A DNA stretch of 64,000 bases, from positions 682,001 through 746,000 of the forward strand of contig NZ_CP138333.2 in NCBI RefSeq assembly GCF_038561955.2, written 5' to 3'. Position 1 is the stretch's first letter. Each line of letters opens with the position of its first letter. Both the position numbers and the translations under genes were made by a program. The notes beneath the pieces were generated by a model that searched no databases, was not told the origin of the DNA, and worked only from the letters and a program-made list of their open reading frames with translations. The DNA comes from Salinicoccus sp. Bachu38. Its GTDB lineage: Bacteria > Bacillota > Bacilli > Staphylococcales > Salinicoccaceae. Shown here piece after piece: positions 1 through 48,236 of the stretch.

Positions 1-1
1 A

Positions 2-298: not shown

Positions 299-335
299 TA
301 CAGAAAGCTGGTTACCTTAAGGTGGGGCAGACGCT

Positions 336-2923: not shown

Positions 2924-2944
2924 ATATAGATTAAAGGAGAAAAA

Positions 2945-4210: not shown

Positions 4211-4377
4211 CAATTTAGAGTGGTGTAATAGAGGTTGTTAAAATTTAACATACTCAGATTTTAGCCAATGTATATGCTGTAGTTCCATCAAAATTTTACA
4301 ATACTATACCAAGTATTTGGCTGGTTAATATATGACATTGTATATCTTTAAAAATCATATTATAGAGGTGAGAAATA
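4211..4377 (+). other. Intergenic spacer before the ATC-start glycosyltransferase
   Basis: This 167-bp AT-rich gap holds no gene that I can see. It ends with a strong ribosome site, AGAGGTGAG at 4364-4372, placed for the downstream gene whose first codon reads ATC. I do not see a convincing terminator or promoter here. Confidence 0.5.
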
Positions 4378-5493
4378 ATCAAAAAAATACTATACATTTC
4401 TTTAATTTTTCCCCAACAACGTGTATTCAAGACAATCCAAAGTTTAAATGATTTAGGTTATGAAGTAGATATAATAACATTCAAAATTGATAATAATAAA
4501 GTTGAGGCATTCGATCTTAACAAGTTAGAATATAACTTAACTTATTTAAAGCTACCCAAATTAGTGATGTTTTTGCCGTTAAAACTTTTTTTACTTAAAA
4601 AACAGATAAGAAAAATGGTGAAATTTAACAAATATCATAAAGTCATCATGAGAGATATTTTTTCATGGGATATTTCATTATATTTAAAAAAATATCATAA
4701 TACGGAATACATAATCGATATAGCTGATAATTACCCTGAAGTTTTTAAGTCTAGATTCAGAAGTAAAACACTATCTAATTTTTTGGCATATTTTTATAAT
4801 TTGAGCGAAAAAATTGCTGTAAAAAATTCCAGATTTGTTTTTGTGGTTACTGACTATAGTAAAAATCTTTTAATCAAAAAACATAAATTAAAACCAGAAA
4901 GTATTTCTATTTTAAACAATTATCCTCAGAGAAGTGATGTGCTTACTCCCAAATCATGTTTGAAACCAATCAATGTTTCTTCGAAACCAAGTCTCGTTTA
5001 TGTTGGGACTGTTGATCAAAAAGTAAGGAACTTAGATGATGTCCTATCATATATTAAGGATACGGATATCGAATTGAATATATACTCTTACAATAAAGAA
5101 ACCATTGAAAAAATGGTAGACATACATCAAGTTAAAGACAATGTTAAAATCCATGAACCAGTTAAGAGGTCTAATCTTATTAAATCAATTAGAAAATATG
5201 ATATAGGAATCATTCCACATAAGCTAATATTAGGGACAGAATATACTGTACCTAATAAATTATATGACTATATTCATAGTGAAGTGCCTATATTAGCAAC
5301 AAAAAATAAGGCTATGACACGGGAGATTCAAAATCTTGGTGTAGGAAGAACCTATAACAACAAAAAAACATTTTATCATGAACTTTATTATTTAATAAAT
5401 AATAAAGATAAGTACTTAAATCATATATGCCAAGTTAAGCATGAGTGTGTGTGGGAGAAACAAAATGATGTAATAAAGGGAAGGTTATTATAA
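4378..5493 (+). CDS. Glycosyltransferase, GT4-like, with an apparent ATC start codon
   Basis: The frame gives KKILYISLIFPQQRVFKT directly after an ATC codon that sits 5 bases past AGAGGTGAG. That is exactly where a start ATG would be, and KKILYIS is the normal first beta strand of GT-B enzymes. Upstream the frame closes at a stop at 4369-4371, so no AUG, GUG or UUG start can encode this strand. Starting at the next ATG (4564) would remove 62 residues including the strand. The C-terminal half carries SLVYVGTVDQKVRNLDD and PNKLYDYIHSEVPIL, the donor-binding loop. The protein is 371 residues from the ATC. The end overlaps the next start (TAATG), indicating coupling. Either ATC is used for initiation or the gene is weakly expressed through a start-codon mutation. 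Confidence 0.75.
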   Translation: MKKILYISLIFPQQRVFKTIQSLNDLGYEVDIITFKIDNNKVEAFDLNKLEYNLTYLKLPKLVMFLPLKLFLLKKQIRKMVKFNKYHKVIMRDIFSWDISLYLKKYHNTEYIIDIADNYPEVFKSRFRSKTLSNFLAYFYNLSEKIAVKNSRFVFVVTDYSKNLLIKKHKLKPESISILNNYPQRSDVLTPKSCLKPINVSSKPSLVYVGTVDQKVRNLDDVLSYIKDTDIELNIYSYNKETIEKMVDIHQVKDNVKIHEPVKRSNLIKSIRKYDIGIIPHKLILGTEYTVPNKLYDYIHSEVPILATKNKAMTREIQNLGVGRTYNNKKTFYHELYYLINNKDKYLNHICQVKHECVWEKQNDVIKGRLL

Positions 5494-7589: not shown

Positions 7590-7590
7590 T

Positions 7591-9540
7591 ATGAATATTG
7601 AATTGGTGAAAAATATGGGGATGAGATGGCTTATTTATCGATCACAGTATGAAGTGAAGAAAAAATTTGGCTATCTAAAAAAAACGTATCCATCTAAGCA
7701 TCTTGAAGATATTAATATAGGCTATAATATAGGAAAAAAAACTATAAGAGATAGAATCTTAAGTAATTTTTCAGAGTTGAGCAAAGTTGACCAATTAAAA
7801 CCTGAAGATATATTCAGGTTAAAAGTAAGAGCTGATAGGATAGTTGAGGACAAATTTCATTACTTTAATGATTTGGAAAACACTTATTCCTACGTAGCAT
7901 GGAATTATTCGCCTAAGACAAGAAGTCACGCTCCTAAAGATTATCATTGGAGTGAAATTTCTGACTTTAATAGTGAGTTTGGAGATATAAAGTGGATTTG
8001 GGAATTGAGTCGATTTACTTTTACTTATGATTTGGCAAGAGCATATCTCTATACTGGGAAAGATGGATATGCTGAAAAATTTTGGAGACTTTTTGAAGAC
8101 TTCATTGAAAATAATCCTCTCGAAACAGGGGTGAACTACAAATGTAGTCAAGAAATGTCTTTTAGAGTTAACGCATGGCTATTTGCTCTATATCATTTTA
8201 TAGATCACCCATCTTCTACAGAAAAGAGAGTGATAAATATGGTAAAATCAATAGCTCATTATGGTAATCATATCCACAAGCACATTAATTTTTCGGTTGA
8301 GGCTGTGAAAAATAACCATAGTATCTCTGAAGCGACGACTTTAGTAGTTATAGGCAATACATTGGATTTTCTTCCAAACAGTAATAAACTCTTTAGAAAA
8401 GGTTCGAAAATATTAAAAAAGGAAATCAATTGGCAGATCAAAAGTGATGGAAGCTTTATTCAGCATTCTCATAATTATCATAGGCTCGTTTTACAAAATA
8501 TTTCTTGGTACTTGACGAGTATGAAGAGCGTGAATAAATATATCTCACAGACTATAGTAAAAAAAGCGAATCTTTCAATCGACTACTTTATGAATGTGAT
8601 TTCAGCTAAAGGGGAAGTTCCAAATTATGGGATGAATGATGGATCATATATAATGCCCTTGACTGAAAGAGGATATAATGATTATCGTCCAGTTCTTCAA
8701 TGCTTGAACTATCAATTAAACAACACATTGTTATTTAGAGACACCTCTGTAAATGAAATTCTAAATCTGTTCAACAGGACAGTAAGTGTTGAGGAGACTG
8801 ATACTAAGGAGCATGAACCCAAGGATGTCGCAATCAATCATGAGGGGGGTTATCACACCTTAAAACATGGTGATTTTAAAGTTCATGTAAAGTCGAAAAG
8901 TTATAAAGATCGACCAGCACAAGCGGATATGAATCATGTAGAGATATGGTGGAGAGAGCAATGTATTTTTTGTGATGCAGGGACCTACAGTTATAATGAC
9001 AACATGGGTATTATCAATTACTTTAACGGCACCCCATCACATAATACAGTTTTAATTAATGATGAGAGTCAGATGAAAAAAGGCGCGCGTTTTATTTGGT
9101 ATAATTGGTCAAAATCAAAAAAGCCAGAAGTTAAACGAAAAGCCAGTGAAGTTAGAATAGAAGTCGAGCTGCGTAATTATGGGAAATACCGTCATAAGCG
9201 ATCAGTTACAATTGGATACAATGAAGTGGTAATAATTGACCAAATTGTAGCACCCTCTGATAAGGATATAGCTGATTTTAAACTGCAATGGCTGACAGAA
9301 CTAGATGTAAAGGTTAAAGAGAACCAGCTTAAATTGGGCGAGGATGAATGGAAAATGACTTTTGCCTCTGATAATGGTGGTGAATTAATCACCTATTATG
9401 GTAGTGAAGAACCCTTTAGAGGATGGGTTTCTTCCACATATGGAGAAAAACATGCAGCTAATCAGATAATCTATCACACGAAAACAAGTAACCGCAGCTA
9501 TAATATTAAGACTATTTTAAGCAAAACAGAAAAGGTGTAA
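7591..9540 (+). CDS. Heparinase II/III-family protein
   Basis: This 649-residue protein has an N-terminal alpha-toroid domain (about 60-380, with NNHSISEATTLVVIG near residue 245) and a C-terminal beta-sandwich (about 415-620). The C-terminal part shows QADMNHVEIWW, DAGTYSYND and the characteristic GTPSHNTVLIND. These are hallmarks of heparinase II/III and alginate-lyase-like proteins. No signal peptide is visible, so it probably acts in the cytoplasm or on the membrane face. In these operons such proteins always travel with the dehydrogenase fusion seen immediately upstream. Uronate lyase activity on the ManNAcA-containing polymer or its intermediates is possible but unproven. Confidence 0.85.
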   Translation: MNIELVKNMGMRWLIYRSQYEVKKKFGYLKKTYPSKHLEDINIGYNIGKKTIRDRILSNFSELSKVDQLKPEDIFRLKVRADRIVEDKFHYFNDLENTYSYVAWNYSPKTRSHAPKDYHWSEISDFNSEFGDIKWIWELSRFTFTYDLARAYLYTGKDGYAEKFWRLFEDFIENNPLETGVNYKCSQEMSFRVNAWLFALYHFIDHPSSTEKRVINMVKSIAHYGNHIHKHINFSVEAVKNNHSISEATTLVVIGNTLDFLPNSNKLFRKGSKILKKEINWQIKSDGSFIQHSHNYHRLVLQNISWYLTSMKSVNKYISQTIVKKANLSIDYFMNVISAKGEVPNYGMNDGSYIMPLTERGYNDYRPVLQCLNYQLNNTLLFRDTSVNEILNLFNRTVSVEETDTKEHEPKDVAINHEGGYHTLKHGDFKVHVKSKSYKDRPAQADMNHVEIWWREQCIFCDAGTYSYNDNMGIINYFNGTPSHNTVLINDESQMKKGARFIWYNWSKSKKPEVKRKASEVRIEVELRNYGKYRHKRSVTIGYNEVVIIDQIVAPSDKDIADFKLQWLTELDVKVKENQLKLGEDEWKMTFASDNGGELITYYGSEEPFRGWVSSTYGEKHAANQIIYHTKTSNRSYNIKTILSKTEKV

Positions 9541-9542
9541 AT

Positions 9543-10775
9543 ATGCATATTTTGTTGGTTCACCAGTTTTATTTAGGAGAAAGTGATTCAGGCGGCTCAA
9601 GGTTTAACCAGTTCGTCAAATATTGGGAAGATCGTGGACATACTATAACTGTCTTAGCTGGTACAGTGAACTATACTACAGGGAAGAAGAATGAAAAGTA
9701 CAAAGGCAAATTTATAACTAAAGAAAAAATATCAGAAAAAGTTACGATTTTAAGATGTCATGTATCAGATAACTATAATAAAAACTTTTTAGGTCGTTTG
9801 GGTGGTTACTTTTCTTTTAATTTCTCTTCAGCAATAGCTTTATTCAAGACCAGTAAACCAGATATAATTCTTGTGACTTCTCCTCCATTATTTGTAGGAT
9901 TAACAGGGATATTAGCGAAAATAACCAAAAGAAAGCCTTTGATTTTTGAAGTTAGGGATTTATGGCCTGAATCAGCCATCGATATGGGAATACTCACAAG
10001 CAAGCCTATTATTAAACTTGCATATCTAATAGAAAAACTATCTTACAAGACTGCGGATAAAATAAATGTACTGACTCCTGCTTTCAAAAATAAATTGGTG
10101 AATCAGAAGAGTGTAACAGAAAGTAAAATTATATATGTTCCAAACGGTGCAGATACAGATATTTTCCAACCTGAGTCTAAAGTAGGTTGGGTGAGAGATA
10201 AATATAATTTACATGACAAGTTCATTGTTACTTATATGGGAGCTCATGGAATTGCAAATAATCTTATCACTTTATTGAAAGCTGCAAAAAAATTGCAGGC
10301 AATCGATAATGAAATTCATTTCATGTTGATAGGAGATGGGATGAAAAAACCTGAACTGGTTGAATATGCTAAAGAAAATGGAATCAATAATGTTACTTTT
10401 GTAGCAGCTCAGTCTAAAGCAGTTATGCCAGATTTCTGTAATACTTCGGATTTATGTACAGCTATTTTACAGAATAATAGCACATTTAGGACAGTATATC
10501 CGAATAAAATATTTGATTATATGTCATGTAAAAAGCCAGTGTTAATAGGTATTGATGGGATAGCTAAAGAGCTGGTAGTTAATAATAATGCAGGAGTTTA
10601 TGTAAATCCTGATAATATGAATGAAATGGTCGATAAAATACTAACCTTAAAAAACAACCCCTCTCTGTTAGAAGAAATGGGGAATAATGGATATGAATTT
10701 GTTATTAATAATTTTCAGAGGCAAAAGCTTGCTGACAAATACGTAGAGGCAATGGAGGAGGTTATTAATGATTAA
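9543..10775 (+). CDS. Glycosyltransferase, WbuB-like GT4
   Basis: The 410-residue protein begins [20 protein letters not shown], followed by the long hydrophobic segment around residues 85-120 and [18 protein letters not shown], the signature of WbuB/WcaI-type GT4 enzymes. The donor site shows [15 protein letters not shown] and [15 protein letters not shown]. It would transfer an amino sugar to the lipid-linked intermediate. The ribosome site is AAAAGGTG, just before the ATG. The end overlaps the PglC-like gene by 8 bp. AT content is lower than in the genes before it, marking a gradual change in composition. Confidence 0.87.
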
Positions 10776-11376
10776 AAGACTTTTTGATTTCACTGCTTCT
10801 TCTATAGGTCTTGCTGTGGCTTCCCCTATTTTATTAGGTACCACATTACTGGTTAAAAAGAAGCTTGGCTCCCCTGTTCTTTTTAAGCAGACTCGCCCTG
10901 GACTTCGCGGAAAGCCGTTTGAACTATACAAATTCAGAACGATGATTGATGGCAAAGATGAAAATGGCATGCTACTTCCAGATGAAGAACGTTTGACTGA
11001 GACCGGCAAGTTCATTAGAAAATATAGTTTGGATGAACTGCCTCAACTTATCAATGTAATCAAAGGGGAGATAAGCCTAGTAGGTCCACGTCCCTTACTT
11101 ATGGAATATCTCGAATTGTATGATGAACGTCAGATGCGCCGTCATGAAGTGAAGCCTGGAATTACAGGGTGGGCACAAGTGAATGGTAGAAACGCAATAT
11201 CTTGGGAAGAAAAATTTGAACTGGATGTGTGGTACGTGGAAAATCAGTCGTTTTTACTTGATATGAAGATTCTCTACCTTACATTGCTGAAAGTGCTCAA
11301 AAGTGAAGGCATCAACCAAGATGGCCAAGTGACCATAGAGAAATTCAAAGGAAGAAAAGAAGCAGAGCCGGTATGA
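10768..11376 (+). CDS. pglC: Phosphoglycosyl transferase (PglC-like initiating sugar transferase)
   Basis: This 202-residue monotopic enzyme has one N-terminal re-entrant hydrophobic helix ([17 protein letters not shown]) followed by the small catalytic core. Visible motifs are [29 protein letters not shown] and SLVGPRPLL. It joins a sugar 1-phosphate to undecaprenyl phosphate and so starts repeat-unit assembly. The size matches Campylobacter PglC rather than long WbaP types. It is preceded by GAGGAGG and is coupled on both sides to the WbuB-like and PglD-like genes. A second PglC-like gene lies at 20173. Confidence 0.9.
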
Positions 11377-11999
11377 AAAAAGTAATATTAATTGGAAATG
11401 GTGGCCACAGTAGAGTCATTCAGGAAATGATTAATAAAAACAACGCCTATGAATTGATTGGTATACTCGACCAATCAGTGGAATCTTTTTATAAAGAGGA
11501 GTCTGTAATTTATGATAATACAGACAATCTCTCTTATTATAAACAGGAAGCATCTTTTGTTCTAGCCATCGGAGATAATAAAACCAGGAAAAAAATAATG
11601 AAGGAAAACAACCTTGAACCTGAAAACTTTGCTACTATTATCGATCCTTCAGCAATAGTAGCAACTGACGTCTCTATTGGTGCAGGTACGGTGGTTATGC
11701 CTGGAGCAGTTATAAATACAGGTACTATAATTGGAAACCATACAATTATAAATACGCGTGCAGTAGTTGAGCATGACAATGTAATAGAAGATTTTGTCCA
11801 TATCTCCCCTAATGCAACATTAACCGGAACCGTTCGTGTAAGAAATTTTTCCCATATAGGTGCAGGGGCTATTGTAATACCTAACAAGACGATTTATGAG
11901 AATGTGTCAGTCGGTGCCGGTGCAGTAGTCGTTGAAGATGCTGAAAAGAATACTGTTATTGTTGGTGTCCCAGCAAAAATCATTAAAAGGAGATCTTAG
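11373..11999 (+). CDS. pglD: Sugar O/N-acetyltransferase, PglD/NeuD family
   Basis: This 208-residue protein has an N-terminal Rossmann-like half ([18 protein letters not shown]) and a C-terminal left-handed beta helix of hexapeptide repeats from about residue 90 ([16 protein letters not shown] and onward). [15 protein letters not shown] includes the histidine that acts as base in PglD. Acting between the aminotransferase and PglC, it would acetylate a UDP-4-amino sugar to give a UDP-di-N-acetylbacillosamine-type donor. It overlaps pglC by 4 bp and is 2 bp from the aminotransferase gene. Confidence 0.88.
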
Positions 12000-12001
12000 T
12001 T

Positions 12002-35853: not shown

Positions 35854-36633
35854 CTAATTTAAAATGGGGGAAACCATGGTAATATCATATTTTACCAGGT
35901 CATTGGAAATTTTTTCTTCTATGGGTTTGTCAGTGATCAATGTATTTATCTGACTAACCTTGGCAAAAACGGCACTTGAGTTGATACCTATCTTGGAACT
36001 GTCGATAATAGCGACAACTTCTCGAGAGTGGTTGACCATTTCTTTTTTAAGTTCAACTTCGTAAAGATTGAAGTCTGTTAGTCCCTTTTCAATAGAAAAG
36101 CCGCTTGCAGAAGTGAACATCATATCAATATTGACATGATCCAGAATATCTAGACCAAGCTTACCTTCTATAGAACTAGAGCCGGGAGTGACTACACCAC
36201 CGATTAGTATCACCGTTATATCCGGGTTTTCTTTAAGTTCAAGGGCAGATTGAATACCACTTGTTACAACAGTCAGTTTTATAGCCTGGTGTTTCAAATA
36301 ACGAGCGAGTTCGAGTGCAGTTGAACTGGCATCCAGTAATATACATTGTTTCTCTTCAATAAAGCGATAGGCTTCTCTTGCAATTTGATTCTTTTCTTTT
36401 CTATTTTTCTTCTCACGTGCAGAAAAACTCATCTCGCCATCTGTATAGTCATTGAGAACAGCGCCCCCGTGTGTCCTCGTTAACAATCCTTCGGTTTCCA
36501 TTTTTGTCAAATCGGATCGAAGCGTCGCTTCGGATACGCCAATTCGTTTTGCAAGGTCTTTTACTGTAACCCTTTGCTTTTCCTGTAAGTAATGTAGTAT
36601 TTCATTTCTTCTTTCACTTGCGAACATTTTCAT
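35854..36633 (-). CDS. DeoR-family repressor of the tetritol island
   Basis: The 259-residue regulator has an N-terminal DeoR helix-turn-helix (RRNEILHYLQEKQRVTVKDL to ATLRSDLTKMETEGLL, about residues 8-52) with GLLTRTHGGAVL. A C-terminal sugar-phosphate-sensing domain follows, with LLDASSTALELARYL and VVTSGIQSALELK. I place the start at the ATG ending at 36633 (GAGGA just upstream; 36627 is also possible). The longer frame to 36732 would run through the operator at 36709-36723. It is divergent from the catabolic operon and probably senses erythrulose phosphate or a related tetrose phosphate. Confidence 0.88.
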   Translation of the reverse strand: MKMFASERRNEILHYLQEKQRVTVKDLAKRIGVSEATLRSDLTKMETEGLLTRTHGGAVLNDYTDGEMSFSAREKKNRKEKNQIAREAYRFIEEKQCILLDASSTALELARYLKHQAIKLTVVTSGIQSALELKENPDITVILIGGVVTPGSSSIEGKLGLDILDHVNIDMMFTSASGFSIEKGLTDFNLYEVELKKEMVNHSREVVAIIDSSKIGINSSAVFAKVSQINTLITDKPIEEKISNDLVKYDITMVSPILN

Positions 36634-36708
36634 TGATTCCTCATCCTCTTTATTTTTTGCATGTTTATTATATATTCTATCAATAAATTTCCAGGTTATC
36701 ATTATAGT

Positions 36709-36723
36709 TTCGTTTATTTTCGA
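36709..36723 (+). promoter_or_regulatory. Candidate DeoR operator 1 (upstream of the regulator gene)
   Basis: TTCGTTTATTTTCGA; its reverse strand contains CGAAAATAAACGA, nearly the same as the operators at 36787 and 42089. It lies about 80 bp upstream of the regulator start and suggests autoregulation. Confidence 0.55.
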
Positions 36724-36778
36724 ATATATCATTTAACTTATATATGATTTCAATATATTAGAATTATTAAAAAATTAA

Positions 36779-36806
36779 TTGACAATACGAAAATAAATGA
36801 TAATAT
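36779..36806 (+). promoter_or_regulatory. Promoter of the tetritol operon with operator 2 in the spacer
   Basis: A consensus -35 TTGACA (36779-36784) and a -10 TAATAT (36801-36806) are 16 bp apart. The motif ACGAAAATAAATGA (36787-36800) fills the spacer exactly. A repressor bound there would block RNA polymerase directly. Confidence 0.7.
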
Positions 36807-36823
36807 TATTCTTATAACAATTG

Positions 36824-36838
36824 TTGAAAGCGATTGCA
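36824..36838 (+). promoter_or_regulatory. CcpA-binding (cre) site of the tetritol operon
   Basis: TTGAAAGCGATTGCA fits the cre consensus WTGNAARCGNWWWCA with one mismatch. It lies about 18 bp after the -10, a position where bound CcpA would block transcription. Confidence 0.7.
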
Positions 36839-36989
36839 AATCATCGTATTATTTCGTTTCAAGTTTTAAAAAATGTGTTTTGAAACTTTTAGTACCTGTA
36901 TTATATCATATTGATTTTGTGATTTTTCATGATATGAGTGATTTGAAAAGGAATAAGACACCCAAAGTATATTAGAAAGAAGGGGTTGT

Positions 36990-37757
36990 ATGGGATTTAA
37001 AGGGTATGACAAGAACTTCAACATCACTGACAGAGTCGCGGTGGTCACAGGAGGTGCAAGTGGTATAGGTCGTGCTGTTGTGGAGTTGTACATAGAAAAG
37101 GGAGCTAAAGTTGCGATTCTTGACATGAACGAAAAAGCAAATGAAGTTGCAATGGAGATTGATAGCAAACGTACAGTAGGTATCCAATGTGATGTAACGG
37201 ATGCTGGCAGTATTACTCAGGCAATAGAAATGGTGCAAGAGAAGTTTGGCAGAGTTGATATCCTTGTAAATTGTGCTGGCATTGCTTTACTGGATGACGC
37301 AGAAAATATATCTGATGAATATTGGAAGAAGACTATGGCAATCAACCTGGATGGGCTTTTCAAAGTGACTCAGCAAGTAGGGAACATTATGATCAGTAGT
37401 GGTGAGGGTGGAAAAATCATCAATATGGCCTCCCAAGCTGCTTTGATTGCCCTTGATAACCATGTCGCATATAGCACGAGTAAGGCTGGATTGCTTGGAA
37501 TGACTAAAACGCTTGCTTATGAATGGGCTCAATTCGGCATTACAGTGAATGCAATTTCCCCTACAGTCGTCCTCACAGAACTTGGGAAGAAGGCGTGGGC
37601 AGGTGAAAAGGGAGAAAAAGCAAAAAGAGAGATTCCTCTTGGGCGTTTTGGATATCCTGAAGAAGTGGCGGCCATCGCATTGTTCCTAGCCAGTGATGCA
37701 GCAAATTTAATTACAGGAGAGAACATTGTCATGGATGGTGGAAACACAATTAAATAA
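36990..37757 (+). CDS. dthD: Short-chain dehydrogenase, D-threitol dehydrogenase-like
   Basis: The 255-residue SDR has the NAD motif VAVVTGGASGIGRAV (about 15-29), LVNCAGIALL (about 90), the catalytic Tyr and Lys in VAYSTSKAGLLG (about 155) and MDGGNTIK at the end. SPTVVLTELGKKAWAGEKG followed by PLGRFGYPEEVAA resembles D-threitol dehydrogenases described in Mycobacterium, which oxidise D-threitol to D-erythrulose. The other genes of the operon are those of tetritol use. The start follows AAGAAGGGG. It is the first gene after the CcpA- and DeoR-type sites. Confidence 0.82.
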   Translation: MGFKGYDKNFNITDRVAVVTGGASGIGRAVVELYIEKGAKVAILDMNEKANEVAMEIDSKRTVGIQCDVTDAGSITQAIEMVQEKFGRVDILVNCAGIALLDDAENISDEYWKKTMAINLDGLFKVTQQVGNIMISSGEGGKIINMASQAALIALDNHVAYSTSKAGLLGMTKTLAYEWAQFGITVNAISPTVVLTELGKKAWAGEKGEKAKREIPLGRFGYPEEVAAIALFLASDAANLITGENIVMDGGNTIK

Positions 37758-37816
37758 AAGGTAGATAAAATTTTGAGATTACCATTTACTATAGAAAAAT
37801 TGATAAAGGAGAATTA

Positions 37817-38926
37817 ATGATGAATGAAATAGCTGAGAGTAAAACTGGTCGGGAATCAATGCCTGAGAAAATGAAAGCGGTTGTAGCGTACGCGCCGAAA
37901 GATTACCGTTATGAAGAGGTCAGCATACCTGAAATTGAAAATGACAAAGAAATCATCATAAAGCTCGAAGCATGTGGCATTTGCGCAGGAGACATTAAAG
38001 CATATGATGGCGCACCCAGTTTTTGGGGTGATGATACGCAACCCTCCTATATCAAGGCGCCTATGATTCCAGGACATGAATTTATCGGACGTGTCGTTGA
38101 AAAAGGGGATGCTGTAGATGATTTTGAAGTTGGGGATCGTATCATCTCTGAGCAGATCGTTCCATGCTGGGACTGCAGGTTCTGTAACCGGGGTCAGTAT
38201 TGGATGTGCGAGAAGCATGATCTTTATGGATTCCAGAAAAATGTTAATGGCGGTATGGCTGAATACATGAAGTTTACTAAAGAAGCAATTAACTTCAAAG
38301 TGCCAGAAGAATTGACTATTGAGCAGGCCATACTTATTGAACCTTATGCATGTAGTTTGCATGCAGTACAAAGAGCTCAGCCACAACTCGGAGATGTTGT
38401 CGTACTTTCGGGTGCCGGTACGCTTGGACTAGGGATGATTGGCGCCCTAAAGAAGTCAGGACCAGCGAAAATCGTTGTATTAGATATGAAAGATGATCGT
38501 TTGGAGCTGGCAAAAAAATTTGGTGCTGATATTGTGATGAATCCAAGCAAGGTGGATGTAGTGAAAGAGATTAAGGATATGACAGAAGGATACGGCTGCG
38601 ATATTTATATTGAAGCTTCCGGACATCCTAAATCTGTAGAACAAGGTTTACATGCAATCCGTAAACTGGGAACCTTTGTAGAGTTCAGTGTATTTGGTGA
38701 ACCGGTTACAGTGGACTGGAGCATAATTAGTGATCGTAAGGAATTGGATCTTCTTGGCTCTCACCTGGGCCCATACTGCTATCCAATTGTGATTGACGGT
38801 ATTGTAAATGGAGATTTTCCAACTGAAGGTGTAGTTACACACCAATTGAAACTAAGAGATTTCGAAGAAGGATTTGAACTCATGAAAAAAGGCGAAAAAT
38901 CATTGAAAGTCATATTGAAACCGTAG
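37817..38926 (+). CDS. eltD: Zinc alcohol dehydrogenase, erythritol/L-threitol dehydrogenase-like
   Basis: This 369-residue medium-chain dehydrogenase has the catalytic-zinc GHEFIGRVVEKGD, and the structural-zinc cysteines in CWDCRFCNRGQYWMC. VLSGAGTLGLGMIGAL is its NAD-binding motif. The stretches SEQIVPCW, KHDLYGF, VDWSIISDRKELD and LGSHLGPYCYP match, as far as I recall, the Mycobacterium erythritol/L-threitol dehydrogenase EltD, which yields L-erythrulose. With the SDR upstream, the operon could oxidise both threitol enantiomers and erythritol. AAAGGAG precedes the start. Confidence 0.82.
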   Translation: MMNEIAESKTGRESMPEKMKAVVAYAPKDYRYEEVSIPEIENDKEIIIKLEACGICAGDIKAYDGAPSFWGDDTQPSYIKAPMIPGHEFIGRVVEKGDAVDDFEVGDRIISEQIVPCWDCRFCNRGQYWMCEKHDLYGFQKNVNGGMAEYMKFTKEAINFKVPEELTIEQAILIEPYACSLHAVQRAQPQLGDVVVLSGAGTLGLGMIGALKKSGPAKIVVLDMKDDRLELAKKFGADIVMNPSKVDVVKEIKDMTEGYGCDIYIEASGHPKSVEQGLHAIRKLGTFVEFSVFGEPVTVDWSIISDRKELDLLGSHLGPYCYPIVIDGIVNGDFPTEGVVTHQLKLRDFEEGFELMKKGEKSLKVILKP

Positions 38927-38958
38927 TTCTACTACGAGTCAACAAAGGGGGATGACAA

Positions 38959-40260
38959 ATGACACATCTATCAGCTAATAGTACCTTTCTGGATAAAATA
39001 GGTATACCTTCTCATTTGGTATGGGGATATTTCGGAGTATTAATCTTTATGATGGGGGATGGACTTGAACTGGCTTGGATCAGTCCATATCTTGTAGACC
39101 AAGGACTTTCAGTTCAGCAAGCAGCTTTTCTAACAACAGCTTACGGGGTTACGATTGCCATTGGTGCATGGTTTTCGGGTGTACTTGTGGAAGGTATAGG
39201 ACCTAGGAAGACGATGTTGCTAGGTGTAATTTTCTACATTATAGGACATGTACTTTTTGTGGGCTTGGCGATACCGACCTTGAACTACGAGTTGATGGTT
39301 CCTACATATGCCATCAGAGGTTTTGGCTACCCACTCTTTGCCTATGCATTTCTTGTGTGGATTACGTATCGTACGCCTCACCAACAACTGGGTAAGGCAG
39401 TCGGCTGGTTCTGGTTTGTATTTACAGGTGGGTTGAGTGTGCTTGGCGCATTCTACTCCAGTTGGTCAATACAACTTATAGGGCATGTACCTACATTATG
39501 GACAAGTCTTCTCTGGGTGGTTATTGGAGCGGTATTCGCAATTGTAGTAAACCGCGACAAATTAGAATTGAAAGTTAAAAAGGAAAGTAATGCCTCCAAG
39601 TTAAAAGAACTATCAAATGGTATTACAATATTGAAACGGGAACCGAAGGTAGCTATTGCTGGTATTGTCCGTATCATTAATCAATCTTCCCAATATGCCT
39701 TCCCTTTGTTTCTGCCTATCTATCTAGCCGGATACGGTATAGAGACGACTGTCTGGCTAAACATTTGGGGAACGATATTCATATCAAATATTGTATTCAA
39801 TCTAATATTCGGCTATGTCGGAGATAAATTTGGCTGGAGAAATACAGTTACATGGTTCGGAGCAGTCGGCTGTGGTGTATTTACGTTATCCCTTTTCTAT
39901 GCCCCTCAAATCTTCACTGGTAACGTAGTTATGGTTGCGATTATAGGTATGCTCTGGGGAGCGTGTATCGCAGGATTTGTTCCATTGTCTGCCTTAACAC
40001 CATCACTTGTTGGCGATGGGGATAAAGGTGCAGCAATGTCTATTCTGAATCTAGGCGCAGGTTTATGTGTATTTGTTGGCCCGGCGCTTGTTGCTCTCTT
40101 CTTCGATGCCGTGGGTCCTGAAGGATTGGTATGGATTCTTGCCGGATTTTATTTTATAGCAGCTATAATGACCAGATTCTTGAAAATCCCAGAACATAAC
40201 ACGGCGAAAGCGGAAGCCGAAAAAAATACAGCACAGAGTGTCCCATCCACGACAGTCTGA
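38959..40260 (+). CDS. MFS polyol permease
   Basis: The 433-residue transporter has twelve membrane segments split by a cytoplasmic loop near residues 200-230. The region GDGLELAWISPYLVDQGLS in the first helix pair and AIRGFGYPLFAYAFLVWI are typical of the ribitol/arabitol-type polyol permeases (RbtT/DalT/CsbX group). It should import threitol or erythritol. It lies between the two dehydrogenases and the kinase, with GGGGG before the ATG. Substrate choice is inferred from operon content. Confidence 0.82.
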   Translation: MTHLSANSTFLDKIGIPSHLVWGYFGVLIFMMGDGLELAWISPYLVDQGLSVQQAAFLTTAYGVTIAIGAWFSGVLVEGIGPRKTMLLGVIFYIIGHVLFVGLAIPTLNYELMVPTYAIRGFGYPLFAYAFLVWITYRTPHQQLGKAVGWFWFVFTGGLSVLGAFYSSWSIQLIGHVPTLWTSLLWVVIGAVFAIVVNRDKLELKVKKESNASKLKELSNGITILKREPKVAIAGIVRIINQSSQYAFPLFLPIYLAGYGIETTVWLNIWGTIFISNIVFNLIFGYVGDKFGWRNTVTWFGAVGCGVFTLSLFYAPQIFTGNVVMVAIIGMLWGACIAGFVPLSALTPSLVGDGDKGAAMSILNLGAGLCVFVGPALVALFFDAVGPEGLVWILAGFYFIAAIMTRFLKIPEHNTAKAEAEKNTAQSVPSTTV

Positions 40261-40318
40261 TATATAAGGATTTGTAATATTGAGCAAATGATAAAAAGAG
40301 TAATGATAAGGAGCAATA

Positions 40319-41326
40319 ATGATGAAGAAGCTGATGAACGACTCTAAAGATATAGTGGAAGAAATGATTGAAGGATATGTTAAGGCCCATCCAGATATTA
40401 TTCGCCAAGTTCCTGAAAATGCAAGAGCGCTTGTCACCTCCCAAGAAACTAGGGAGAACAAGGTCGGTATCCTAGTCGGCGGTGGCTCTGGACACGAACC
40501 GGGTTTCATGGGATATGTCGGTTCAGGTATGGCTGACGGTGTGGCTGTCGGCAATATATTTGCATCTCCCTCGCCTGATCCGATTCTGGAAGTGACTAAG
40601 AATATCGACAAAGGTGCTGGTGTTGTTTATCTATATGGCAATTATGCTGGGGACGTAATGAACTTTGGAATGGCAGCTGAGATGGCTGATCTGGAAGAGG
40701 ACATTCAAGTGGGTATGGCTTTAGCGACAGATGACGTAGCCTCAGCTCCGAAAGAAGAAAAGGAAAAACGTCGTGGTATTGCAGGTGAGTTCTTTATATT
40801 CAAGGCGGCAGGTGCTGCAGCAGATTTTGGATATTCACTTGAAGAAGTTGTAAGAGTAGCCAATAAGGCGAATGATAATACTCGTTCCATGGGCGTTGGA
40901 CTTTCTCCTTGTTCATTGCCTCAGACAGGCGAACCTAGTTTTGTACTAGGTGAAGATGAAATGGAAATCGGACTCGGTCATCATGGAGAACCTGGGCTTG
41001 AGAAAGGGAAAATTGAATCTGCAGACAGTGTTACTGATCGTCTGGTCAACGATATTCTGGAAGATATAGAAATAAACTCTGGTGAAAAAGTGGCGGTACT
41101 GGTGAATGGCTTGGGCTCCACACCCAGAATGGAACTATATGTTATGTACCGTAGAGTAGAACAGATTCTGAACGAACGTGGTATTGATATCTATCGATCC
41201 TATGTCGGAGACTATATTACATCTCTTGAAATGGGCGGTGCCTCAGTAACACTTATGAAATTGGATGATGAACTGGAAGAAGCAATCGACCATCCAGTAA
41301 ACTGCCCTATGTTTGTCCAAAAATAA
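40319..41326 (+). CDS. dhaK: Dihydroxyacetone-kinase-type K subunit, probable erythrulose kinase
   Basis: This 335-residue protein has VGGGSGHEPGFMGYVGSGMA (about residues 50-70) and LGEDEMEIGLGHHGEPG (about 215-231), the latter including the histidine that binds the substrate carbonyl in DhaK. Together with DhaL it transfers phosphate from ATP to a ketose. In tetritol pathways DAK-family kinases phosphorylate D- or L-erythrulose, so erythrulose is more likely than dihydroxyacetone here. No DhaM gene is present, so the phosphate donor should be ATP. AAGGAG precedes the start. Confidence 0.85.
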   Translation: MMKKLMNDSKDIVEEMIEGYVKAHPDIIRQVPENARALVTSQETRENKVGILVGGGSGHEPGFMGYVGSGMADGVAVGNIFASPSPDPILEVTKNIDKGAGVVYLYGNYAGDVMNFGMAAEMADLEEDIQVGMALATDDVASAPKEEKEKRRGIAGEFFIFKAAGAAADFGYSLEEVVRVANKANDNTRSMGVGLSPCSLPQTGEPSFVLGEDEMEIGLGHHGEPGLEKGKIESADSVTDRLVNDILEDIEINSGEKVAVLVNGLGSTPRMELYVMYRRVEQILNERGIDIYRSYVGDYITSLEMGGASVTLMKLDDELEEAIDHPVNCPMFVQK

Positions 41327-41343
41327 AAAGGAGGAATCCACTA

Positions 41344-42000
41344 ATGGAGTTTTCAGCAAACCAATTTAAAAGTTACTACAAAGAGATTATAAGCATGGTT
41401 GAAGAGGAGAAAAATTACTTATGTGAGCTCGATCGTAAACTTGGAGACGGAGATCATGGCGTAACAATGTCTATAGGTTGGCAAGCGGTCGATGAAAAGA
41501 TTGATAATGAACTTGTAGAAGAAGAAGACTGCGGGAAAATCAATATTATGGTTGGAAAAACATTCCTTAATGCAGTTGGATCTTCTGTGGGGCCGCTCTA
41601 TGCTACAGGTTTCATGAGGGGTGCTAAGGTAGTCAAAGGTAAATCAGTAATCGGTGACAATGACCTTGCAGAATTCTGGATAGCTTTTGCAAGAGGAATA
41701 CAAGAGCGCGGCCAAGCAGAAGTAGGCGATAAGACAATGGTCGACACATTGGAGCCATTTGCGGATAAGTTGGAGTCTGTTTTTGCGGAAACAAAGGACT
41801 TTCGCATAGCATTTAATGAAGCTGTGGAAGCGGGAGAAAAAGGTATGCAATATACGAAGGACATCGTTTCCAAAAAAGGCAGGTCCAGCCGACTCGGTGA
41901 ACGATCAATCGGAGCACAGGATCCTGGAGCAACCTCTGCCTATTTGATTCTTGCAACTTTCCAGAATTTCATTAAGTCTCATACTGCTCAAGTGGGTTGA
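41344..42000 (+). CDS. dhaL: Dihydroxyacetone-kinase-type L subunit (nucleotide-binding)
   Basis: The 218-residue protein has LDRKLGDGDHGVTMSIGW near residue 28; these aspartates hold the magnesium ions and nucleotide. VGSSVGPLYATGFMRGAK and SSRLGERSIGAQDPGATS complete the DhaL set. It is the ATP-binding half of the split kinase whose substrate half is encoded directly upstream, 17 bp away. In mycobacterial tetritol pathways the kinase is a single fused protein; here it is two. A terminator follows. Confidence 0.88.
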   Translation: MEFSANQFKSYYKEIISMVEEEKNYLCELDRKLGDGDHGVTMSIGWQAVDEKIDNELVEEEDCGKINIMVGKTFLNAVGSSVGPLYATGFMRGAKVVKGKSVIGDNDLAEFWIAFARGIQERGQAEVGDKTMVDTLEPFADKLESVFAETKDFRIAFNEAVEAGEKGMQYTKDIVSKKGRSSRLGERSIGAQDPGATSAYLILATFQNFIKSHTAQVG

Positions 42001-42042
42001 GCCATATTCTAAAACAGATAAAACTGGTTGAATACTCGAATT

Positions 42043-42078
42043 AAATGAATCAGGAATATATATTTCTGATTCATTTTT
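42043..42078 (+). terminator. Terminator after dhaL
   Basis: AAATGAATCAG (42043-42053) pairs with CTGATTCATTT (42066-42076) and is followed by TT. It splits the catabolic genes into two transcription units. Confidence 0.75.
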
Positions 42079-42088
42079 AAAATCTCAA

Positions 42089-42144
42089 ACGAAAATAAAT
42101 GAAAGTTAAGTGAAGAGAAAAATATGTAAACGAAATTTAATGAA
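42089..42144 (+). promoter_or_regulatory. Two DeoR operator-like motifs upstream of the isomerase gene
   Basis: ACGAAAATAAATGA (42089-42102) is identical to the operator in the main promoter (36787-36800). ACGAAATTTAATGA (42130-42143) is a weaker copy. They lie between the terminator and the isomerase start, so the second unit is probably under the same repressor. Confidence 0.65.
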
Positions 42145-42182
42145 GTTTTATACATTATTTATTAAAACTGGAGGAATTGAAC

Positions 42183-42674
42183 ATGAAAATTGGTATCGGC
42201 AGTGATCATAACGGATTTGAGATGAAAGAAGCAGTCAAACATTTTATACAAGAGTCAACAGAGCACGAACTGGTCGATTACGGTTGTCATTCCTGTGCAT
42301 CAACAGATTATCCGGATGTAGCATTCGAAGTGTCTGAAGAAATTAGTAAGGGAAATCTGGATAGGGGAATTCTTGTGTGTGGAACCGGTATTGGTGTGGC
42401 TATTGCTGCTAACAAGTACCCAGGGATTCGCGCTGCAACTGCTCATGATGTGTACTCTGCAGAACGTGCTCAACTCAGTAATAATGCGCAGATTATAACA
42501 ATGGGTGCTCAAATTATTGGAGAGGAAGTAGCTAAGAAGGTTGTAGAGGCATACTTGAATGTTGAATGGGCAGATGGATCAAAACGCAAGGTGGACAAGA
42601 TCATTGAAAAAGAGCAGGAGTTTGTTGGTCGCAGTTTTGAGAAGATGGCCACTTCCAATAATCTAGACAGTTAA
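42183..42674 (+). CDS. rpiB: RpiB-family isomerase, probable erythrulose-4-phosphate isomerase
   Basis: This 163-residue protein begins [19 protein letters not shown] (RpiB proteins have SDHAG). It has [15 protein letters not shown] and the active-site cysteine in [16 protein letters not shown] near residue 65. RpiB/LacAB isomerases interconvert aldose and ketose phosphates. In tetritol operons such enzymes convert erythrulose 4-phosphate to erythrose 4-phosphate, which fits here better than ribose 5-phosphate. I use the ATG at 42183, 7 bases after GGAGGA, rather than a TTG 6 bases upstream. Confidence 0.83.
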
Positions 42675-42693
42675 TTTGAAAGGGGGAAATCCA

Positions 42694-43650
42694 ATGCAAT
42701 CATTATCACTAGAATTTTTGAGAGTGACTGAATCAGCTGCAATTGCTGCATTACCTTGGGTTGGAAGAGGTGATAAAATATCTGCGGATGATGCCGCAAC
42801 GACTGCAATGAGAAATGCATTGAACACTATTCCGATGCGAGGCAGAATTGTTATCGGCGAAGGTGAAATAGACCAAGCACCAATGCTTTATATTGGTGAA
42901 AGGCTTGGAAAAGGTGGTTTTGCTGAAGTAGATATTGCAGTAGATCCGATTGAAGGAACCACTCCAACTGTAAATGCACAAGAGAATGCAATCACGGTTA
43001 TTGCAGCCGCTCCAAAAGGAAAGCTTCTGCATGCTCCTGATATGTATATGGAAAAACTTGCTGTGGGGCCAAAAGCTAAAGGGAAGATTGATATTGAAGC
43101 TTCGTTAATTGAGAATATGAAAGCAGTTGCCGAGGCAAATGGCAAGGATATATCAGAACTGAACGTAGTAGTTCAGAATAGGCCGCGGCATGCTGAGTAT
43201 ATCGATCAAATTAGAAAGTCTGGTGCCAAAGTCCAAATCTTTAACGATGGCGATGTCATTTATGCTGCCGCAACATGTATGGAGCATATTGATATCGATA
43301 TGTTCCTTGGTATCGGAGGGGCTCCGGAAGGGGTATTGAGTTCAGTAGCAATTAGAGCTCTTGGCGGAGAAATGCAGGCAAAGTTAAAACCTCAAGATGA
43401 TTTGGAATTAAATCGCTGCAAAGATATGGGTATCGATAACCCGGAAGGGGTTCTTAAACTTGATCAGTTAGTAGAATCGGATGAATGTATATTCATAGCG
43501 ACAGGTCTTACAGACAGTTTTCTCCTTAATGGAATCAAGTGTAGTGGGCGTTCTTATACCACTCACTCCGTCCTAATTGACGGGAAAGATAAACAGTTGC
43601 GTTACATTGAAAGCGAACACAAGTTTGAGACTGTAATACAGACAGTATAG
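42694..43650 (+). CDS. glpX: GlpX-type (class II) sugar bisphosphatase
   Basis: The 318-residue enzyme has GEGEIDQAPMLYIGE, the metal site DPIEGTTPTVNAQENAIT (about 78-95), and LGIGGAPEGVLSSVAIRALG near 205. Class II enzymes remove the 1-phosphate of fructose 1,6-bisphosphate, and some act on sedoheptulose 1,7-bisphosphate. Next to a transketolase and an erythrose-4-phosphate-forming isomerase, the sedoheptulose activity is the attractive option: erythrose 4-phosphate plus dihydroxyacetone phosphate would give the bisphosphate. The ATG at 42694 follows AAAGGGGGA; the frame from 42676 is less likely. Confidence 0.85.
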   Translation: MQSLSLEFLRVTESAAIAALPWVGRGDKISADDAATTAMRNALNTIPMRGRIVIGEGEIDQAPMLYIGERLGKGGFAEVDIAVDPIEGTTPTVNAQENAITVIAAAPKGKLLHAPDMYMEKLAVGPKAKGKIDIEASLIENMKAVAEANGKDISELNVVVQNRPRHAEYIDQIRKSGAKVQIFNDGDVIYAAATCMEHIDIDMFLGIGGAPEGVLSSVAIRALGGEMQAKLKPQDDLELNRCKDMGIDNPEGVLKLDQLVESDECIFIATGLTDSFLLNGIKCSGRSYTTHSVLIDGKDKQLRYIESEHKFETVIQTV

Positions 43651-43733
43651 TCGGTAAGTCAGAAGATTTAAAAAAAGAGATTATTTTCTGGCATAAAAGA
43701 ATTCTAATCTTATTATGAGGGGAACATACCGTA

Positions 43734-45746
43734 ATGCCATTAACTCAAGTTTCTACAGAACAACTATCTATTAATTCCATTCGTACTCTATCCATTGATG
43801 CTATTGAGAAGGCAAGTTCCGGACATCCAGGATTGCCTATGGGTGCAGCTCCAATGGCTTACACGCTGTGGACGAGACATATGTTACACAATCCGGAACA
43901 TTCCAAATGGTTCAACCGGGACCGTTTCGTCCTTTCTGCTGGTCACGGTTCAATGTTACTTTACAGTCTGCTTCATTTATCTGGTTATGATGTGACGATG
44001 GAAGATTTAAAAAACTTTCGCCAATGGGAATCACGTACTCCAGGCCATCCTGAAGTACATCATACAGACGGTGTAGAAACCACTACAGGTCCGTTGGGGC
44101 AGGGGCTGGCTACCGCTGTTGGAATGGCTATGGCAGAAGCGCATCTCTCTTCAGTATTTAACAAGGAAGATTTTCCTATTGTTGATCATTATACTTTTGC
44201 ACTTATCAGTGATGGTGATCTGATGGAAGGTATTTCTCATGAAACTGCTTCACTTGCAGGTCATCTTGGGTTGGGCAAGCTGATTGTGTTATACGATTCA
44301 AATGATATCTCTCTAGACGGGGAATTAAGCAAGTCATTTTCTGACAACACACAAATGCGGTTTAATGCTTATGGATGGCAAGTGCTTAGCGTTGACGACG
44401 GAAATGATACCGAAGACATAGGGGGTGCTCTGGAAAAAGCAAAAAGCAACATTGATCAGCCTACATTGATTGAAGTTAAGACCACTATTGGTTTCGGCTC
44501 CCCAAACAAGTCTGGATCTTCTGAATCTCATGGTGCACCCCTCGGTGAAGAAGAAGTGAAATTGACTAAAGAATATTATGGTTGGGCACATGAGCCTTTT
44601 GATGTGCCTAAGAGTGTATATGAAGACTTTAATGAAAAAGTCATTAAAACAGGTGCAGAGGCAGAAAGTAACTGGAACCGTTTATTTGAAGGATATGAAG
44701 AAAAGTATCCGGAGGATGCTAAACAGTTAGCTTTAGCAATGAACGGAGAATTACCTCAAGATTGGGAAAAAAACTTGCCGACATATGAAGAGGGTAAAGA
44801 TGTACTCGCTACACGTGCTTCCTCAGGAGAAGTGTTAAACGCAATTGCTGAGGCAGTGCCGAATTTCCTTGGAGGCAGTGCCGATCTTGCTGGGTCCAAT
44901 AAGACACTGATTAAAAATCAGAAAGACTTCTCAAGAAAGAGTTTCGAAGGCCGCAATATATGGTTTGGGGTTAGAGAATTCGCTATGGCTGCTGCACTTA
45001 ATGGTATGGCGCTTCATGGTGGTCTTAAAGTTTATGCGGGAACATTTTTCGTTTTCAGTGATTATCTTCGTCCGGCAGTGCGTTTATCTGCGCTTATGCA
45101 ATTGCCTGTCACTTATGTTTTTACACATGATTCAATCGCTGTGGGTGAAGATGGTCCTACACATGAGCCAGTCGAGCACCTTGCATCTCTCCGTACAATG
45201 CCTGGATTATCAGTGATTCGACCTGCAGATGCAAATGAAACACAAGCAGCATGGCGTCTTTCAATGGAATCTAAGGATAGGCCAACTGCATTGGTACTGA
45301 CAAGGCAAGACCTTCCCACTCTTGAAGGCACACAAGAAAATGCATACAAAGGTGTAGAAAAAGGTGCATATGTGGTAAGTAAGGAAAGCAAAGACGTACT
45401 AGATGCAATTCTACTTGCTACTGGCTCTGAAGTTCAATTAGCTGTCAAAGCCAAAAAAGCTTTATCTGAAAAGAATATAAATGTTCGTGTGGTCAGTATG
45501 CCATCTTGGGACAGATTTGAAGAACAAGACGAAGCATATAAAAATGAAATCATCCCCCCGAATGTGAAGAAACGCCTCGGGATTGAAATGGCCTCTCCCT
45601 TCGGTTGGAGGGAATACGTTGGAGATGAAGGAGAAGTCCTCGGAATAGACACTTTTGGAGCTTCAGCAAAAGGTGAAAGAATCATGGAAGAGTGCGGGTT
45701 TACCGTAGAGAATATAGTGAAGATTGTAGAAGATATGCTAATTTGA
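43734..45746 (+). CDS. tkt: Transketolase
   Basis: This full-length, 670-residue enzyme has [20 protein letters not shown] at the start, [20 protein letters not shown] near 115 and the TPP motif [18 protein letters not shown] near 155. The pyrimidine domain shows [20 protein letters not shown] and [18 protein letters not shown]. It exchanges two-carbon units between pentose, tetrose and heptose phosphates. Placed after the tetrose-phosphate isomerase and GlpX, it would feed tetrose carbon into the pentose phosphate pool. It is probably an additional copy, since a housekeeping transketolase is expected elsewhere. Confidence 0.93.
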
Positions 45747-48165: not shown

Positions 48166-48236
48166 GCCGACATAGTTTAATGGTAGAACACAGCCATGGT
48201 AAGGCTGCAATGCGAGTTCGATTCTCGCTGTCGGCT
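48166..48236 (+). tRNA. tRNA-Thr (anticodon GGT)
   Basis: The 71-nt sequence folds as a cloverleaf. The acceptor stem is GCCGACA with TGTCGGC, the D arm GTTTAATGGTAGAAC, the anticodon stem CAGCC/GGCTG with loop ATGGTAA (anticodon GGT), and the T arm GCGAG-TTCGATT-CTCGC. The discriminator base is T and no CCA is encoded. GGT reads threonine codons ACC and ACU. It stands alone between the lipoprotein and RDD genes. The short D loop resembles that of glycine tRNAs, but the anticodon is unambiguous. Confidence 0.9.

Follow-up and report, generated by a model that had tools for sequence, protein, structure and literature searches.

A probable tetritol catabolism island in Salinicoccus with a candidate sedoheptulose-bisphosphatase exit related to plasmid-borne methylotrophy

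We analyzed a 64,000-nucleotide stretch of the genome of the salt-loving bacterium Salinicoccus sp. Bachu38 (contig NZ_CP138333.2, positions 682,001 to 746,000; hereafter the window, numbered from its first base), in which nine genes at 35854–45746 appear to form an acquired, DeoR-regulated island for tetritol catabolism. With a probability of roughly 0.6, its product, erythrose 4-phosphate (E4P), would be disposed of through a host aldolase, an island-encoded GlpX acting as a sedoheptulose-1,7-bisphosphatase (SBPase), and transketolase (Tkt). Four observations carry this reading: the gene content of the island, an operator that recurs in related islands, a residue change in the RpiB-family isomerase, and a GlpX that shares a clade with GlpX-P, the SBPase encoded on plasmid pBM19 of Bacillus methanolicus.

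We infer the substrate of each enzyme and its direction in the cell from these relationships. Erythritol and/or D-threitol would enter through a permease and be oxidized to D-erythrulose by a zinc dehydrogenase and a short-chain dehydrogenase/reductase (SDR), after which a DhaK-DhaL kinase would form D-erythrulose 4-phosphate and the RpiB-family enzyme would convert it to E4P. The host's class II aldolase (Fba) would condense E4P with dihydroxyacetone phosphate (DHAP) to sedoheptulose 1,7-bisphosphate (SBP), from which GlpX would irreversibly take one phosphate to leave sedoheptulose 7-phosphate (S7P). From S7P the extra Tkt would make pentose phosphates, and further E4P would let it form fructose 6-phosphate and triose phosphate.

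Results

Gene content of the island

All nine genes are present and intact. Family searches and motif inspection bore out the gene content, at the same coordinates, that a preliminary description of this DNA had proposed. In the following, relatives are identified by locus (L) and genome (G) numbers.

35854–36732, minus strand: DeoR/GlpR-type regulator (PF00455/PF08220)
36990–37757, plus strand: SDR of the GolD/DthD family, probable D-threitol dehydrogenase (NF005309, 373.6 bits, cut-off 286)
37817–38926, plus strand: zinc-dependent medium-chain dehydrogenase, EltD-like, probable erythritol dehydrogenase (PF08240/PF00107; zinc motifs)
38959–40260, plus strand: polyol permease, RbtT/DalT/CsbX family of the major facilitator superfamily (MFS) (TIGR00897, 557.3 bits, cut-off 375)
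40319–41326, plus strand: DhaK-type substrate-binding subunit of a probable erythrulose kinase (PF02733; GHHGEPG motif)
41344–42000, plus strand: DhaL-type subunit (TIGR02365, 176.8 bits, cut-off 138.3; GDGDHG motif)
42183–42674, plus strand: RpiB-family isomerase, probable D-erythrulose-4-phosphate isomerase (start read from the sequence)
42694–43650, plus strand: GlpX, class II bisphosphatase of the island/GlpX-P clade, probable SBPase and fructose-1,6-bisphosphatase (FBPase) (TIGR00330, 407.1 bits, cut-off 259.3)
43734–45746, plus strand: Tkt (976.6 bits as an ordinary bacterial transketolase, cut-off 682.25)

The expected motifs are kept in these proteins with a single exception, the first Gly of the Tkt thiamine motif, which is Ser; the same Ser occurs in the genome's other full-length Tkt and in some further transketolases, and was dropped as a lead. 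The longest open reading frame (ORF) of the regulator carries a 33-residue N-terminal extension relative to its 259-residue counterpart in L009, and the profile matches begin at residue 36–41; the true start thus likely lies near 36633, 33 codons shorter than the longest ORF. The GlpX start at 42694 was refined by reading the sequence. None of the curated equivalog profiles reached its cut-off with the zinc dehydrogenase. At 389.5 bits the island DhaK misses the dhaK1 equivalog cut-off (406.25), whereas the genome's other DhaK, at 440.1 bits, clears it. Because family searches identified no DhaM among the nine island proteins, the island kinase is probably ATP-dependent.

Related islands in Bacillaceae and Paenibacillaceae

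Similar islands recur in Bacillaceae and Paenibacillaceae. Among the best 80 of 509 DhaK loci, 33 hold a core island, defined by DhaK together with a zinc dehydrogenase (at least 60% identity) and an RpiB (at least 50%). GlpX is found in 31 of these cores and the permease in 30, while the SDR (15), Tkt (14), and a transaldolase-family gene (5) are less frequent. The two cores that lack GlpX (L013 and L058) both carry a transaldolase-family gene, a coincidence with a chance of 0.019 that fades to 0.13 when three cores of another genus are added. With L125 and eight islands found by GlpX, the set grows to 42, of which L223 (32%) and L226 (51%) fall short of the 60% zinc dehydrogenase threshold. 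Within the fetched stretches, 23 of the 42 have GlpX alone and ten have GlpX with Tkt; six combine GlpX, Tkt, and the transaldolase-family gene, and single islands show these three with Fba, Tkt with the transaldolase-family gene, or the latter alone.

The three added cores (L259, L260, and L261; genus g2 of the same order) are minimal, consisting of zinc dehydrogenase, DhaK, DhaL, and RpiB with no permease match, L260 having been characterized from its ORFs and the other two from matches. L260 and L261 also have a DeoR-type gene with operator-like copies nearby.

DhaK loci of another type (L024, L025, L027, L030, L033, L037, and L039) have no GlpX and comprise RpiB, a DeoR-type gene, a TIM-barrel protein, DhaKL, a hydroxyisobutyrate-dehydrogenase-like protein, and a solute-binding protein, some with GH43; the protein families were tested on L024. 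On a single contig of Alkalihalobacillus sp. BA299, the DhaK loci L036 and L038 are separated by about 20 kb.

A shared operator and two probable transcription units

The shared operator that had been proposed for the island is real: the 13-mer CGAAAATAAATGA occurs exactly at two sites and recurs in relatives.

36788–36800, plus strand: exact operator before the SDR gene, overlapping a promoter-like pair at 36779–36807
42090–42102, plus strand: exact operator upstream of rpiB
36710–36722, minus strand: operator-like copy with one mismatch
42131–42143, plus strand: operator-like copy with two mismatches
42043–42076, plus strand: 17-nt inverted repeat, a possible terminator after dhaL that the terminator scan did not report

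At up to two mismatches the whole window contains five matches, against 4.39 expected by chance, and four of the five fall in the two island control regions. The pattern was also sought in 45 loci, other than the window, that contain DhaK, RpiB, and GlpX (near-duplicate species kept); 30 of them have it ahead of rpiB and 28 ahead of the regulator gene. Over the intervals used, which reach 200 bp upstream from the RpiB match and 350 bp from the DeoR match, its density is 3.69 per kb, compared to 0.097 per kb elsewhere. In a control on the rpiB-upstream interval, none of 200 shuffled patterns reached 30 loci (mean 3.1, largest 17). Since the inverted repeat and a second operator pair precede rpiB, the arrangement suggests a single regulon comprising two transcription units rather than one.

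Loss of the ring-opening histidine in the island isomerase

The His that opens the sugar ring in true RpiB (His99 in E. coli) is replaced by Ser in the window protein. E4P and erythrulose 4-phosphate are unable to form a furanose ring, so the substitution fits a tetrose-phosphate isomerase, and by this residue the island enzyme looks tetrose-specific. His99 helps open the furanose ring of ribose 5-phosphate, and the kcat of E. coli H99N is down 26-fold, as described in the available text of PMC4783025. In an alignment of 76 RpiB rows, Ser occupies the position in 71 (65 different sequences), including all 33 core islands and every island and DhaK-locus row, and His in the remaining five (L138, L141, L150, L151, and 3he8). 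One Ser row, the rhizobial L064, scores 254.4 bits and passes the cut-off of 240 of a rhizobial profile for D-erythrulose-4-phosphate isomerase (NF051858), whereas the RpiBs of the window (154.5 bits) and of island L032 (157.9 bits) fall below it. Both pass general RpiB cut-offs, in the case of the window protein those of the RpiB subfamily and the rpiB equivalog.

According to the part of PMC10733421 at hand, EltD and LerK take erythritol to D-erythrulose 4-phosphate and L-threitol to L-erythrulose 1-phosphate, the latter continuing via LerI. General scans, with no search aimed at LerI, named none among the island genes, which makes erythritol and D-threitol the likelier substrates. These results support the tetritol-to-E4P pathway of the preliminary description.

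The island GlpX shares a clade with plasmid GlpX-P

Published accounts of B. methanolicus, in the sections available, have both GlpX-C and GlpX-P acting on fructose 1,6-bisphosphate and SBP as a substrate of GlpX-P only, and both Fbas of this organism forming SBP (PMC3905653, PMC7092467). In a tree of 79 GlpX rows, a branch with support of 100/100 sets 42 rows (40 from islands, two plasmid GlpX-Ps) apart from 37 others; thus, the island proteins group with GlpX-P and apart from GlpX-C, and the chromosomal GlpX of a B. methanolicus-like genome (G083) falls among the 37. The non-island side of this tree was thinned (14 of 30 from L091–L120, 17 of 36 from L127–L162, all five of L231–L235, and L236), and the island rows L016, L048, and L055 and the near-copies L012, L035, and L042 were omitted. 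Another tree, which omitted L126, L048, L016, L103, L001, L122, L136, and 12 chromosomal rows, gave the same split (37 versus 53 rows). An island clade that excludes GlpX-P was rejected by the approximately unbiased (AU) test (p 0.0065), applied to a grouping already seen in earlier trees.

We also searched 398 Bacilli genomes with a profile built from island GlpXs and GlpX-P. Ten matches of at least 492.9 bits stand apart from the next (477.8 bits). One is the window itself and eight are loci with both RpiB and DhaK; the tenth is on a plasmid-like 20.2-kb contig, and the GlpX there shares 96.6% identity with GlpX-P. Five lower-scoring places in four genomes have no DhaK or RpiB match, and four of these five bring Fba, a transaldolase-family gene, and GlpX together. 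Because matches to a GlpX profile also land in loci with DhaK and RpiB, the link between GlpX and the island does not depend on DhaK seeding alone. A further 36 GlpX loci, taken from a sample of 151 genomes and picked from matches of at least about 430 bits (a level below which the window GlpX itself scores), show no DhaK.

Two GlpX settings of other kinds were observed. L138 and L141 bring GlpX, Fba, Tkt, and a His-bearing RpiB together in one 19-kb stretch with no DhaK, perhaps for another sugar-phosphate cycle. In an E. coli plasmid record (L126, 563–12033), an arrangement reminiscent of the islands is seen: tkt, cmtBA, yggP, a GlpX paralogue, fumE, yggC, epd, pgk, and fbaA lie one after the other, yggP encoding a zinc dehydrogenase.

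A flux model of E4P use

We built a small linear flux model for this analysis and ran it on 16 gene sets. FBPase altered E4P use in none of the eight with/without pairs, so in metabolic terms a bisphosphatase fits such an island mainly as an SBPase. When transaldolase was included, all carbon reached triose. Without transaldolase, SBPase reached the same carbon yield at twice the phosphofructokinase flux; without transaldolase and SBPase, E4P was used only via the oxidative branch, with a quarter of the carbon lost. When transaldolase and the oxidative branch were both removed, SBPase permitted E4P use whereas FBPase alone did not. Where transaldolase is present, the benefit of SBPase may be an irreversible pull on E4P.

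Transketolase, aldolase, and the SBPase arm of pBM19

The plasmid Tkt groups with four island Tkts (support 100/95, and 100/97 in a second tree) and is 88% identical to the Tkt of L032, while in G083 the chromosomal copy clusters with Tkts from chromosomes. PMC3905653, in the available part, gives 76% identity between the two Tkts of B. methanolicus MGA3. An AU test of the plasmid Tkt placed inside versus beside its five nearest island Tkts gave p 0.36. A different island group (8 rows, 100/99) holds the window Tkt, whose identity to the pBM19 Tkt is 66%. For the aldolase, the pBM19 Fba is nearest (77% identity) to that of L038, where GlpX, Tkt, and Fba stand in a row and no zinc dehydrogenase reaches 60%; this placement in a 15-row Fba tree has no firm support.

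Since GlpX-P lies among the island GlpXs and the plasmid Tkt groups with island Tkts, the SBPase arm of pBM19 and the islands probably share an origin. The direction of transfer is a more tentative matter: that SBPase-type GlpX of Bacilli originated in the Bacillaceae tetritol islands, and that pBM19 took glpX, tkt, and perhaps fba from them, is a proposal to which we would give even odds. The text available from PMC3905653 and PMC7092467 does not state where this arm came from.

Signs of acquisition and the host background

The genome consists of one contig of 2.62 Mb. The GC content of the island is 38–43%, compared to 46–53% across window positions 46–64 kb. Of 12 genomes in the genus, three have an island-type DhaK (at least 91% identity), whereas all 12 have the other DhaK (38–41%), one copy having an internal stop. 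Both contrasts fit an acquired island. The DhaK of the window island shares 97% identity with its S. luteus counterpart and 91% with the S. halodurans one.

Elsewhere the host genome encodes one further full-length Tkt (59% identical to the island Tkt), one transaldolase-family gene beside one class II Fba, one class III FBPase, one RpiA, and another DhaK that clears the dhaK1 cut-off, accompanied by DhaL and by a DhaM that passes its own; it has no second class II GlpX. As the host already has Tkt, Fba, FBPase, RpiA, and DhaKLM, the island supplies extra, dedicated enzymes. It contains no aldolase, the sole class II Fba of the genome being located elsewhere. The separate DhaK-DhaL-DhaM set (G000:C1:91461-92348; L123) is of the type that depends on phosphoenolpyruvate (PEP) and adjoins an aldehyde dehydrogenase and the end of an iron-type alcohol dehydrogenase.

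At window positions 1–12000 the GC content is 25–36%, far below that of the remainder, which suggests another acquired region. A tRNA-Thr (ggt) lies at 48166–48236, some 2.4 kb beyond the right-hand end of the island.

Discussion

The proposal that GlpX and Tkt provide an exit from E4P is supported by the clade that the island GlpX shares with a reported SBPase and by the pattern of occurrence. Several points weigh against it. The window GlpX is 52% identical to GlpX-P and sits in a different subclade, and at the threshold used only two conservative positions separate the two GlpX clades. E. coli GlpX is itself called an SBPase (PMC10733421, in the part available), so SBPase activity is not confined to the island clade; as GlpX-P is an FBPase too, membership in the clade is neither proof of SBPase activity nor exclusive to it. 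Tkt accompanies GlpX in 13 of the 31 GlpX-bearing cores and has joined islands several times (four to six label changes). In the model with transaldolase, SBPase brings no gain and costs more ATP; the host has a transaldolase-family gene, and the SBPase route is therefore an option for it, not a necessity. Moreover, L259, L260, and L261 have no GlpX, Tkt, or transaldolase-family match within 19.5 kb. We accordingly abandoned the idea that GlpX or a transaldolase-family gene is universal among core islands; exit genes are common in them but not a requirement. Finally, GlpX and a transaldolase-family gene stand together in 7 of the 42 islands, and the L011 transaldolase-family protein scores as a member of the TalC/MipB/fructose-6-phosphate aldolase family, which makes it uncertain to read such a gene as a stand-in for GlpX.

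Some of these points would equally suit the same tetritol pathway with GlpX as an ordinary FBPase that primes the fructose 6-phosphate pool, E4P leaving via the host transaldolase. The FBPase activity of both B. methanolicus GlpX proteins, the host transaldolase-family gene, and the islands in which such a gene lies beside GlpX all agree with it. We nevertheless consider it unlikely, though a serious contender: the host is already supplied with a class III FBPase, modeled E4P use is indifferent to FBPase in all eight pairs, the island clade contains the reported SBPase and is separate from GlpX-C, and both GlpX-less islands among the 33 have a transaldolase-family gene, with the fading noted above. 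A glycerol or dihydroxyacetone island is much less probable. In the gol operon of Listeria innocua, a GolD-type SDR, DhaK, and RpiB occur with a link to pentose phosphates in a PEP-dependent glycerol/dihydroxyacetone pathway that uses DhaM. By analogy, GolD would make dihydroxyacetone, DhaKL would make DHAP, and GlpX, Tkt, and RpiB would link to the pentose phosphates; the GolD/DthD name of the SDR family, the nearest solved relatives of the island DhaK (dihydroxyacetone kinases), and the fructose-6-phosphate aldolase type of the transaldolase-family protein in some islands point this way. Against it, the DhaK that passes dhaK1, with its DhaL and DhaM, is encoded elsewhere, while the island DhaK falls short of this threshold and lacks a neighboring DhaM; the island RpiB lacks the ring-opening His; and more DhaK loci have the zinc dehydrogenase than the SDR (33 versus 15 of 80).

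An island for another polyol or sugar, such as a pentitol or an apiose-like branched compound yielding a tetrulose or other ketose for DhaKL, seems if anything slightly more doubtful. It draws on the DhaK loci of the L024 type, whose TIM-barrel protein is xylose-isomerase-like and which include hydroxyisobutyrate-dehydrogenase-like, solute-binding, and GH43 proteins (tested on L024). Those loci, however, match neither the zinc dehydrogenase (one 29% match aside) nor the permease nor GlpX, and the Ser of the island RpiB is common to a DerI-type protein. Scarcely credible is a formaldehyde pathway of the xylulose-monophosphate type with Tkt as dihydroxyacetone synthase: it would account for the co-occurrence of a dihydroxyacetone-kinase-like enzyme, a transketolase, and a bisphosphatase, but the Tkt scores well above the cut-off for an ordinary transketolase and resembles that of pBM19 at 66%, and the permease and two polyol dehydrogenases would go unexplained.

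Tetritol catabolism with an SBPase exit can be compared with several known systems. Mycobacterium smegmatis reportedly degrades tetritols with EltD, DthD, LerK/DerK, LerI, and DerI (Huang 2015, as cited in PMC10733421 and PMC12780249). The island would follow the same order of dehydrogenation, erythrulose kinase, and isomerization to E4P; unlike that system, it has a split DhaK/DhaL, an MFS permease, a DeoR-type regulator, and the added GlpX and Tkt, and the scans that were not aimed at LerI name none in it. The likeness to DthD is that of a shared subfamily, and the zinc enzyme is a candidate EltD counterpart. The likeness to the Listeria gol operon extends to the SDR, DhaK, RpiB, and the pentose phosphate link, and ends at DhaM, which the window island is without. 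With pBM19 the islands share a GlpX clade, a Tkt clade, an Fba relative in L038, and, in the proposed model, the rearrangement of E4P through S7P to pentose phosphates; unlike the island, pBM19 serves methanol rather than a tetritol, and has no DhaKL, RpiB, or permease among its listed genes, which cover 12.5 of 19.2 kb.

The preliminary description took the exit route to be undescribed for a tetritol operon of this family; the route as such has been described. Brucella growing on erythritol uses transaldolase or Fba plus SBPase; as in the island model, Fba forms SBP from E4P and DHAP and a bisphosphatase yields S7P as an alternative to transaldolase, the phosphatases of the bypass being Fbp and Bbp (PMC11005471, in the part available). 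Unlike Brucella, which makes E4P by Ery enzymes, the window has a GlpX-type enzyme inside the island. The same two variants of E4P use are discussed in the available part of a paper on synthetic cycles (PMC10733421). The route itself is thus already known; what is new is its island-encoded form and the kinship to plasmid methylotrophy. In open-access literature, covered by titles and abstract openings with subscription papers outside the scope, we found no Bacillota islands of this composition and no link to pBM19, and searches for an island phenotype gave no clear result.

If this reading is correct, the island would represent a tetritol pathway that brings its own way out of E4P, and would link natural sugar-alcohol catabolism with the use of methanol by a plasmid-borne route. 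The GlpX set would lend itself to mapping SBPase versus FBPase preference, and the islands would offer ready-made modules for synthetic formaldehyde cycles that run via E4P. Should the proposed origin of the pBM19 genes also hold, a module for disposing of E4P from sugar alcohols would have been reused to regenerate the formaldehyde acceptor.

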